Program-made: the position numbers and the translations under genes
Notes under the pieces: generated by a model
The model's input: only the letters and a program-made list of their open reading frames with translations
What the model was told of the DNA's origin: nothing
Database searches by the model: none
In this document: positions 33,608 to 35,363 of the stretch, piece after piece
Layout: every line of letters begins with the position of its first letter
Numbering within the stretch: position 1 is the first letter of the stretch
Assembly: GCA_002746215.1 (NCBI GenBank)
Contig: NVWI01000014.1
Location: 1-35,363, forward strand
Direction: 5' to 3'
Length of the DNA: 35,363 bases
From: SAR86 cluster bacterium
GTDB lineage: Bacteria > Pseudomonadota > Gammaproteobacteria > Pseudomonadales > Pseudohongiellaceae

Positions 33608-34579
33608 GTGGATAAATTCGAACGCATCTATGAGCTTCATAAACTTCTGACTTCACGTCGCGCCCCGGTTTCTCGTGTCGAGATAGAAAACAAACTGGAC
33701 TGTAGCAAGTCAACTGCAACCCGCTTGATAGAGTTCTGCCGTAGTCGTATTCAAATTCCTATTGAGTATGACAGAGAGAGAAGTGGTTATTACCTTGCTA
33801 TAAAGGAAGGCGAACACTACGAATTACCAGGACTCTGGTTTAACCCCTCCGAACTTATTGCTTTAATGACCAGTCACCGGCTTATTGCCGATGTACAACC
33901 TGGTGTTTTAGAACCCTTCCTGGCGCCTTTACAGAAACGCATAGAAAGCCTGCTGGAAGATGAATATGCTGGCAATCAGGAAGTTTTTAAACGCATCCGT
34001 ATTTTGCAGATGGCGCCCCGAGTAGCCGAACTGGAAGACTTTCAACAAATCACTGATGCGCTGATAGGCCGAGTACAAATTCGTATCCAATATGGCAGCC
34101 GTGGTAAGCAGGAACTCACTGAACGTTGGGTGTCGCCCCAGCGCCTTATCTATTACAGGGATAACTGGTATCTCGATGCCTGGTGCCACCTACGCAAAGC
34201 CATTCGCACCTTCTCACTGGACAGAATGAACGTTGCAGAAAAAGGCCAAATTGCAAAAGACATTACAGACAAGCAACTCGATGCCCACTTCACCCGCACT
34301 TACGGTATTTTCGCCGGCCCCGCAACCAACAAAGCCGTGATTCATTTCTCGGATAAAGCCGCAGAATGGATAGCCGATGAGCACTGGCACCCAGAACAAG
34401 AATCAAAAAGGCTGGAAAACGGCAACTGGGAACTGACCGTTCCCTATGGTGACTCCAGAGAACTCATCATGGATATCCTCAAGTATGGCGAAGATGCAGA
34501 AGTGATAGAACCAGAGTCTTTGCGTCAGCAAGTGATAGAAAAAATGCAAAAATCGTTAAAAAATTATAAAAAATTATAA
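33608..34579 (+). CDS. WYL-domain transcriptional regulator upstream of type I-F cas1
   Basis: The 323-residue protein has an N-terminal winged helix-turn-helix (residues about 1-60; V-S-R-V-E-I-E-N-K-L-D-C-S-K-S-T-A-T-R-L-I). A WYL domain follows (about 145-215; W-V-S-P-Q-R-L-I-Y-Y-R-D-N-W-Y-L-D-A-W, with W187-Y188-L189), then a C-terminal WCX-like extension (Y-G-D-S-R-E-L-I-M-D-I-L-K-Y-G). WYL proteins bind nucleotides or nucleic acids and often control phage defence genes. The GTG start has AAGGA 12 bases upstream. Sampled 60-base lines are 52-55% GC, against about 40% in the neighbouring small gene, hinting at transfer. The last codons (N-Y-K-K-L, stop) lie inside the 10-bp repeat that follows. 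Confidence 0.85.
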   Translation: MDKFERIYELHKLLTSRRAPVSRVEIENKLDCSKSTATRLIEFCRSRIQIPIEYDRERSGYYLAIKEGEHYELPGLWFNPSELIALMTSHRLIADVQPGVLEPFLAPLQKRIESLLEDEYAGNQEVFKRIRILQMAPRVAELEDFQQITDALIGRVQIRIQYGSRGKQELTERWVSPQRLIYYRDNWYLDAWCHLRKAIRTFSLDRMNVAEKGQIAKDITDKQLDAHFTRTYGIFAGPATNKAVIHFSDKAAEWIADEHWHPEQESKRLENGNWELTVPYGDSRELIMDILKYGEDAEVIEPESLRQQVIEKMQKSLKNYKKL

Positions 34580-34616
34580 AAAATTATAAAAAATTATAAA
34601 AAATTATAAAAAATAA
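34561..34616 (+). repeat. Phased A-tract repeat: five exact 10-bp units between the WYL gene and the cas1 operon
   Basis: The unit AAATTATAAA occurs five times without a change from 34561 to 34610, then AAATAA. Each unit joins the next to make a run of six A, so A-tracts recur every 10 bases, close to one helical turn, which predicts strong static DNA curvature. Each unit also contains TTATAA, a -10-like hexamer. The WYL stop codon (34577-34579) is in the second unit, so later units are non-coding. Confidence 0.9.
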
Positions 34617-34622
34617 AACCAG

Positions 34623-34637
34623 GCTCACTCTGTGAGC
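34623..34637. promoter_or_regulatory. Perfect inverted repeat before the small ORF and cas1 (candidate operator)
   Basis: GCTCAC (34623-34628) and GTGAGC (34632-34637) flank TCT. It lies right after the bent repeat and 22 bases before the preferred small-ORF start. No T-run follows, so a terminator is unlikely. It is a natural candidate operator for the adjacent WYL protein. Confidence 0.5.
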
Positions 34638-34659
34638 ATGGAGGGTGGTACAAAGGCTT

Positions 34660-34956
34660 ATGGAAGAGAAGAAAGCAAAATTTCTGACAATTCTGGCTAA
34701 TAAACTGGCAGCTTTCTATGTCTTACAGAAAGAAGGCAAGCCATTGCTTGAAGAGCGCGGTAATGTAAAAGGTTATATGGAAGCAGCATTACGCTTGGGC
34801 GCAATAAGCGAGGTTGAATTACAGAAGGTTATTAGCGAGCAGCATAACAAGGCTTTTGGTAAAGCGCTCAGGCAGCGGCATATTGAATTATTTGATTCAC
34901 AGTCGGAAGAGTTTGACTGGGATTATTTTGATACGCCGATTTGGAAAAGGGAATAG
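34660..34956 (+). CDS. 98-residue protein of unknown function between WYL regulator and cas1
   Basis: Not recognised. I prefer the ATG at 34660 (opening MEEKKAKFLTI; GGAGGG lies 14 bases upstream, AAAGG three); a GTG at 34645 is possible. The protein is charged, without membrane segments or signal peptide. It looks helical: F-L-T-I-L-A-N-K-L-A-A-F-Y-V-L-Q-K-E-G-K, then Y-M-E-A-A-L-R-L-G-A-I and V-E-L-Q-K-V-I-S-E-Q-H-N-K-A. An acidic aromatic tail follows (E-E-F-D-W-D-Y-F-D-T-P-I-W). Its stop is two bases before the cas1 start, so the two are probably translationally coupled. A role with Cas1 (adaptation) or the WYL protein is inferred only from position. Confidence 0.65.
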   Translation: MEEKKAKFLTILANKLAAFYVLQKEGKPLLEERGNVKGYMEAALRLGAISEVELQKVISEQHNKAFGKALRQRHIELFDSQSEEFDWDYFDTPIWKRE

Positions 34957-34958
34957 TA

Positions 34959-35363
34959 TTGGAACAACTCACTGACCTCAAAGCAATACTGCATTCGAAA
35001 CGAGCGAATATCTATTACCTCGACAAATGCCGCGTGATGCAAAAAGACGGCAGAGTCCTTTATCTTACTGAAGCTCGCTCTGATCGAGAAAAAAGGGAAA
35101 ACCAGTACTGGAATATTCCTATCGCCAACACCACCTGTCTTTTATTAGGGACAGGCACCTCTATCACCCAGGCCGCCATGCGTATGCTCGCACAAGCCGG
35201 CGTACTCGTTGGTTTTTGTGGCGGCGGAGGCACGCCTTTATTAATGGCCACCGAAATTGAATGGCTCAGCCCACAAAGTGAATATCGGCCTACTGAATAT
35301 GTGCAGGGCTGGATGCAATTTTGGTTTGACGATAAAAAACGCCTGCAAGCTGCCCGACAATTT
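34959..35363 (+). CDS. cas1: Type I-F CRISPR-associated Cas1 integrase, N-terminal 135 residues
   Basis: Cas1 with Cas2 inserts new spacers into CRISPR arrays. The visible part begins L-K-A-I-L-H-S-K-R-A-N-I-Y-Y-L and continues Y-W-N-I-P-I-A-N-T-T, L-L-L-G-T-G-T-S-I-T-Q-A-A-M, V-L-V-G-F-C-G-G-G-G-T-P-L and S-P-Q-S-E-Y-R-P-T-E-Y. These blocks closely match my memory of Pseudomonas aeruginosa Cas1 of subtype I-F. The gene runs past the window end, so the catalytic C-terminal domain is not seen. The start is a TTG at 34959, chosen because it aligns with known I-F Cas1 starts; GGAAAAGGGA lies just upstream and an in-frame stop occurs at 34929. In I-F loci cas1 heads the cas operon, so cas2-3 and the csy genes are expected downstream. 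Confidence 0.93.
   Translation, partial: MEQLTDLKAILHSKRANIYYLDKCRVMQKDGRVLYLTEARSDREKRENQYWNIPIANTTCLLLGTGTSITQAAMRMLAQAGVLVGFCGGGGTPLLMATEIEWLSPQSEYRPTEYVQGWMQFWFDDKKRLQAARQF

Follow-up and report, generated by a model that had tools for sequence, protein, structure and literature searches.

The conditions that switch on type I CRISPR systems are poorly known; WYL proteins and DNA damage are not included in the list of regulators in the available part of a 2023 review (PMC10013973). Several WYL-domain regulators are described in the accessible parts of the papers cited here and below. DriD from Caulobacter crescentus has its site over the -35 position, with the same distance to a poor -10 element (PMC12340889). 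The PafBC promoters of mycobacteria contain a half-site, followed after about 8 nt by TAnnnT, and recA is among the targets (PMC5656591). SiwR from Mycobacterium smegmatis is an activator under genotoxic stress, and the gap that separates its WYL gene from the target operon contains a palindrome extending from -35 to -10 (PMC10693628). The promoter descriptions of these three systems were also drawn from PMC11804915. The CapW sites overlap the -10 (PMC9122588); the BrxR site is located downstream of the -10 (PMC9122601). Sll7009 is reported to be a negative regulator of a type I-D system in a cyanobacterium (PMC4012209).

The window analysed here is the whole stretch of 35,363 nucleotides, and the features at its end are listed in Table 1. 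A preliminary description had placed a WYL gene and a small gene directly upstream of cas1, in the same direction and with a two-base gap to cas1. This arrangement was confirmed at 33608-34959; the cas1 TTG (34959) is two bases past the TAG of the small gene (34954-34956), and this start lines up with the N-terminal residues in nine other Cas1f proteins. The window truncates cas1, and the operon is complete on the 70,046-base contig. Past cas1f, the operon carries one Bro-N and one ORF6N gene, followed by cas2-3, the csy1-csy4 genes and a CRISPR array with a 60-nt period and roughly 84 units. The NCBIfam models of cas1f, cas3f, csy2, csy3 and csy4 were matched over the cut-off, and csy1 was under it (121 vs 169 bits). 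The locus is therefore a type I-F CRISPR-Cas system with cas1f, cas2-3, csy1-csy4 and an array, csy1 being under its cut-off. The I-Fv subtype was rejected: PADLOC scored Cas1fv above Cas1f, but csy1-4 form a classical I-F locus. The genes cas1, cas2-3 and csy1-4 share one orientation, and neighbours either overlap or are a short gap apart; the one 160-nt gap lies within the inserted Bro-N/ORF6N stretch. The preliminary description had proposed control of spacer acquisition. The co-directional operon indicates that the target is not acquisition alone. The Bro-N and ORF6N genes between cas1 and cas2-3 have ATGA overlaps with both. A Bro-N gene of similar kind is located upstream of cas1 in locus L045, and a DinD-like one in L060. 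The cas1 gene contains ambiguous assembly bases in two codons, the first directly past the window end.

Table 1. Features of the WYL-cas1f region and of related loci (window positions, unless a locus or contig label precedes the numbers)
Feature	Position	Strand	Remarks
WYL transcription factor gene, GTG start, 323 aa	33608-34579	+	wHTH, middle region, WYL, WCX; predicted DriD/PafBC-like
A-tract tandem repeat, 10-bp period	34539-34614	+	WYL 3' end and start of gap; L002 1540-1615
Dyad CCAGGCTCACTCTGTGAGCATGG, predicted WYL operator	34619-34641	+	centre 51 nt past WYL stop
Weak -10-like TACAAA	34649-34654	+	7 nt past dyad; position fixed by relatives
98-codon gene, ATG start, 98 aa	34660-34956	+	apparent passenger in WYL-cas slot
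cas1f, 5' part, TTG start	34959-35363	+	gene end outside window, L002:2964 (whole gene L002:1942-2964)
Bro-N gene	L002:2961-3812		between cas1 and cas2-3
ORF6N gene	L002:3972-4355		between cas1 and cas2-3
Second WYL domain in the genome	G000:C8:26398-26598 (L257)		within a 485-aa ORF
HIRAN proteins upstream of cas1	L077:853-1248, L073:4845-5168, L197:5544-5933, L213:617-1012, L225:5423-5926, L208:5553-5945, L233:5482-5916, L239:5534-5791		
ORF with Cas2 and HIRAN-like parts	L197:8583-8867		Cas2 part of Cas2-3 at start, HIRAN-like at end

The Pfam domains WYL (75.8 bits, cut-off 21.8) and WCX (62.3 bits, cut-off 23.9) were found in the 323-aa protein. HTH_11 was under its cut-off (15.5 vs 25), and a wHTH is present in the predicted protein model. 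WYL, WCX and the modelled wHTH are colinear with DriD, the profile alignment spanning positions 2-317. With a profile built from 14 WYL proteins, the best match was PafBC (1.3e-24); DriD was matched over its full length (1.1e-15), whereas the matches of BrxR and CapW (2.6e-11 and 5.8e-11 at best) cover the WYL part only. With the single window sequence as query, PafBC, CapW (1e-8) and BrxR (1e-4) all outranked DriD (2e-3). The model is of moderate quality (pLDDT 76.4, pTM 0.44) and weak at about residues 74-140. The Foldseek search ranked DriD first (6.1e-16), and DriD was also top by Z, with 17.9 in the C-terminal part (3.1 Å over 191 residues); the full DriD chains gave Z values of 13.6 to 17.1 with a large rmsd, and the other folds gave 12.8 (BrxR), 12.4 (CapW) and 11.2 (PafBC). 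The BrxR and CapW folds are similar overall to the model, and their profile matches are confined to the WYL part. The protein is closer to DriD and PafBC than to BrxR and CapW by profile, and by fold this applies to DriD; the single-sequence result is mixed. Judged by profile and predicted fold, its closest relatives are PafBC and DriD, which are ssDNA-sensing activators. The 485-aa ORF with the second WYL domain of this genome resembles a nucleotidyltransferase toxin by eye.

Cas1f was found over the cut-off in 42 of 369 genomes of the class. A WYL gene of the same subfamily is located upstream on the same strand in 14 of the 41 other cas1f loci, with 41 to 1451 nt between the genes; this pairing exceeds chance. 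The same was seen in 14 of 80 loci among the best 80 named relatives of Cas1f, eight of the others having less than 1.3 kb of upstream sequence. Two WYL genes are common to both sets (those of L200 and L212 are those of L058 and L064). Nine more of the 80 relatives have a co-directional WYL match that is weak, and in some cases a fragment. Five full-length proteins among them have the Pfam WYL domain without WCX, and L249 has both. The five represent a second kind of WYL protein (270-300 aa, without Pfam WCX) upstream of I-F cas1 in L220, L226, L228, L230 and L236. In the Cas1f tree, which has many weak branches, the presence of WYL is not tied to one clade (13/27 in the own clade, 2/10 and 0/3 in others).

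The subfamily itself was found in 111 of the 369 genomes at 1e-10, and 95 members were read, made up of the own gene, 14 from I-F loci, two that have cas1f elsewhere, and a further 78. Downstream of these 78, there are I-E genes in 10, I-C in 9 and I-G in 8 cases. The subtypes other than I-F were called by phmmer with proteins picked by eye, and seven representatives were confirmed by NCBIfam. At least 42 of the 95 members head a type I operon; 53 do not by this test, in several cases owing to a contig end. Owing to the E-value limit, the fetched lengths and the contig ends, the association is a lower bound.

The small gene, which starts 80 nt after the WYL stop, matched no family over the curated cut-offs of Pfam or NCBIfam, and none in PADLOC or PHROGs at the thresholds used. 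Its single-sequence model is poor (pLDDT 67.5) and has three helices. No homologue was found near cas1f in the 80 close relatives (profile of four sequences) or in the 41 class cas1f loci (single-sequence search), and within the set examined the pairing with cas1f occurs at this locus only. The search of the 369 class genomes gave the own gene and four weak matches, of which those in G154 and G305 look real; the G026 match is antisense to another gene by eye, and the G103 match contains stops. Among 57 relatives, the own gene, G410 and a weak match in G413 were found. None was found in plasmids, and none was confirmed in viral contigs. The homologues in G154, G305 and G410 adjoin unrelated genes away from cas. 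The contents of the slot between WYL and cas1f vary: HIRAN (L073, L077), a YhcG nuclease (L046) and Bro-N (L060) occur there, as do small unknown genes, and in some loci the slot is empty. The small gene looks like a passenger, one more insert in this slot. HIRAN-domain proteins are encoded directly upstream of I-F cas1 in 6 of the 80 relatives and in two class loci, and most of them have a twin-arginine-like N-terminus by eye; a literature search on HIRAN together with cas1 yielded mostly unrelated work. One further ORF joins the Cas2 part of Cas2-3 to a HIRAN-like part (Table 1).

Between the WYL gene and the small gene, ahead of cas1, there is a dyad, which is predicted to be the WYL operator. 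Its subfamily form, ACnGGCTCA-N5-TGAGCCnGT, is located downstream of many of these WYL genes. A blind search of 101 regions upstream of WYL genes gave GCTCA-N5-TGAGC as the top shared inverted repeat, in 9 regions (at most 3 in shuffles, n=20); the region upstream of the window's own WYL gene has no such repeat. A GATGC-AA-GCATC repeat on that side of the gene was dropped, as it is not common to the relatives. The exact core occurs 34 times in 2.35 Mb of loci (the window counted twice) vs about 2 expected by base count. Among these, 22 lie no more than about 160 nt from an end of a WYL gene, 5 are at about 400-560 nt, and 7 are elsewhere, including one 65 nt before cas1 in L192. The window's genome has six exact cores, and the five others are all inside reading frames.

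A palindromic 23-bp model (consensus ACnGGCTCAnnnnnTGAGCCnGT) was evaluated by ten-fold cross-validation. A score of at least 11 just past the WYL gene was reached in 43 of 102 WYL loci vs 54 of 5215 control stretches. The window dyad scored 14.7 to 17.0 with models never trained on it, a level reached by 0.4% of the controls; the second-best site in the window scored 9.2 vs 16.2 for the dyad, with a model not trained on the locus. The dyad centres are 9-35 nt past the WYL stop in 31 of 47 sites, and the window's is somewhat farther (Table 1). A score of at least 9 was found in 16/26 I-F, 10/10 I-E, 8/9 I-C, 3/7 I-G and 16/50 other or unknown loci, and in the window as well; 10 of the 26 other I-F WYL loci and 4 of the 7 I-G loci are below 9. 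Several low-scoring I-F loci have a differing dyad with the -10 at the same place, and their specificity may have changed. Neither this dyad nor control of I-F operons by WYL proteins turned up in the open-licence PMC papers searched.

The distance between the dyad and the -10 is also conserved. Among 45 offsets, the best -10 starts at 7 or 8 nt past the dyad in 29 of 54 strong sites, and the dyad centre is therefore on the -35 position. A properly spaced -35 element is found less often than in the background (1/32 vs 5.3%). A site over the -35 position, a fixed -10 distance and a poor -35 were thus all found; the window's own -10 is weak, and this locus contains a better -10 match than TACAAA within the 45 nt. 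An operator overlapping or downstream of the -10, as for BrxR and CapW, was not found here, the dyad being upstream of the -10. The dyad and the -10 suggest that the cas operon is served by a promoter distinct from that of the WYL gene. The ATG of the small gene falls about on the predicted transcript start, and the gene may therefore be leaderless or read from elsewhere. A generic promoter scan gave no + strand site at the dyad; its one + strand site (34928-34957) is at chance level. The A-tract repeat is in phase with the DNA helix, and is possibly the AT-rich upstream DNA of the promoter.

The longer dyad pattern, with at most one mismatch, was found at 27 sites in 23 of the 369 class genomes; among 11 of these sites, 8 are near WYL genes of the subfamily and 3 are just upstream of recA. 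In the family of G265 (gammaproteobacterium-like; L261-L287), 27 of 41 genomes have a dyad site; the first-listed site per genome is before recA in 18 of the 27, before WYL in 8, and before neither in 1. The best -10 is exactly 7 nt past the dyad in 16 of 17 recA promoters of this family. No LexA box (CTGT-N8-ACAG) was found within 260 nt upstream of these 17 recA genes, and a looser CTG-N10-CAG is present in four of the regions. The WYL-type dyad before recA in this family is thus in place of that LexA box. In G154, a member of the family, both recA (L282) and cas1f (L059) have the dyad in front of them, each with a -10 at 7 nt. This cas1f has no adjoining WYL gene, and its dyad scores 11.5 (about 1% of controls reach this) with TATAAT at 7 nt; the WYL gene is located elsewhere in the genome (L153), with the dyad core in front. 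In L192 and L214, too, cas1f has the dyad and a -10 and no adjoining WYL gene. The recA of the window's genome has no dyad (best score 1.8). The sites in front of recA in other bacteria suggest that DNA damage acts as the switch for some CRISPR systems.

The preliminary description had also proposed a dedicated WYL regulator, and this is supported by the recurrence upstream of cas1f and by the subfamily dyad before the operon. The WYL gene probably regulates this operon and recurs as a regulator of other type I operons; its probable operator here is in front of the small gene and cas1. We consider it likely that the protein is a DriD/PafBC-like activator dedicated to the I-F cas operon, bound to the dyad and triggered by ssDNA, with the small gene as a passenger. 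We infer that a WYL dimer binds the 23-bp dyad, which would replace the -35 element, and activates by recruiting RNA polymerase to the weak -10. The ligand would be ssDNA from phage replication or DNA damage, occupying the WYL domain, and a single transcript would span the small gene, cas1, cas2-3 and csy1-4. Activation as the sign and ssDNA as the signal are most likely by analogy with the closest relatives, together with the geometry of the promoter and the sites at recA.

The same site might also be used with the opposite sign, by a BrxR/CapW-like repressor of the cas operon that is released by ssDNA. Many defence operons are headed by WYL repressors, and CRISPR-Cas represents 21 of 210 BrxR-associated systems in the accessible part of PMC9122601, and the spacer of the BrxR site described there is likewise 5 bp; release of CapW and BrxR on ssDNA is described in PMC13373217. 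The second WYL type upstream of cas1f in some relatives is in line with repression. The better single-sequence scores of CapW and BrxR than of DriD, and their higher Z values than that of PafBC, count against the DriD/PafBC-like reading. However, CapW sites overlap the -10 and BrxR sites follow it, whereas the dyad here is 7-8 nt upstream at a near-fixed distance without a -35, and the full-length profile similarity is to DriD and PafBC; a repressor is thus unlikely. The WYL gene might instead be a mere neighbour in a defence island, the dyad being a terminator hairpin or an unrelated repeat. The 53 of 95 members not beside detectable cas genes fit this, and the dyad with the A-tract is terminator-like on the minus strand. 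But the coding strand has no T-run, the loci agree in the 5-nt spacer, the distance to the -10 is fixed, and recA and WYL starts are preceded by this dyad as well. An intrinsic terminator was rejected on these grounds, and the neighbour reading as a whole is quite improbable.

The preliminary description itself had taken WYL, the small gene and cas1 as a three-part module for the control of acquisition. Although the common direction and the 2-bp gap to cas1 are consistent with such a module, the small gene has no homologue near cas1f in either set and its relatives are away from cas genes in the loci read; the module is already refuted within the set examined, and is scarcely credible. In the neighbourhoods of I-F cas1, the expected WYL gene was indeed present in a good part of the loci, but the small gene in none of the others. 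Separate transcription and occurrence away from CRISPR loci had been named as points against the proposal, and here the outcome is mixed: WYL is present upstream of I-F, but more than half of the members read lie away from detectable cas genes, and an own operon promoter is suggested.

With the DriD-like activator as the preferred reading, a broader view can be put forward tentatively. Many type I operons (I-C, I-E, I-F and I-G) of the class may belong to a DNA-damage regulon of DriD-like WYL activators, through a promoter made of the dyad, 7-8 nt and the -10. Immunity and recombination repair might share one ssDNA switch in some of the genomes: in G154, for example, recA, WYL and the I-F cas genes all have this site in front. 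Should the dyad prove to be the operator, ssDNA would induce both spacer acquisition and interference; ssDNA arises directly from infection and from the action of Cas3, and the link to recA is testable. The operator motif also provides a handle for finding every such operon by sequence.

The locus can be compared with the known WYL systems. Sll7009 and other CRISPR-linked WYL proteins are likewise linked to a CRISPR locus; whereas the Sll7009 system is type I-D, and the terms I-F, I-E and I-C were not found in the accessible part of PMC4012209. BrxR and CapW share the position of WYL regulators at the head of defence operons, the short-spacer dyad and, in the literature, the ssDNA ligand, but they are repressors and their sites overlap or follow the -10. 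SiwR, compared here by its description, has its WYL gene directly upstream of the target operon with a palindrome in the gap; its targets are DinB-like genes. PafBC is the best profile match, has recA among its targets, and shows a comparable spacing from half-site to -10. However, PafBC is a heterodimer with one half-site, whereas the dyad here is palindromic, and a homodimer is therefore likely. DriD is the closest fold, is colinear over its full length (wHTH-WYL-WCX), and has its site centred on the -35. The identity is about 19%, and the DriD dyad is unlike the window's in sequence, as far as seen. DriD controls repair and cell-division genes; whereas here a CRISPR-Cas operon adjoins.
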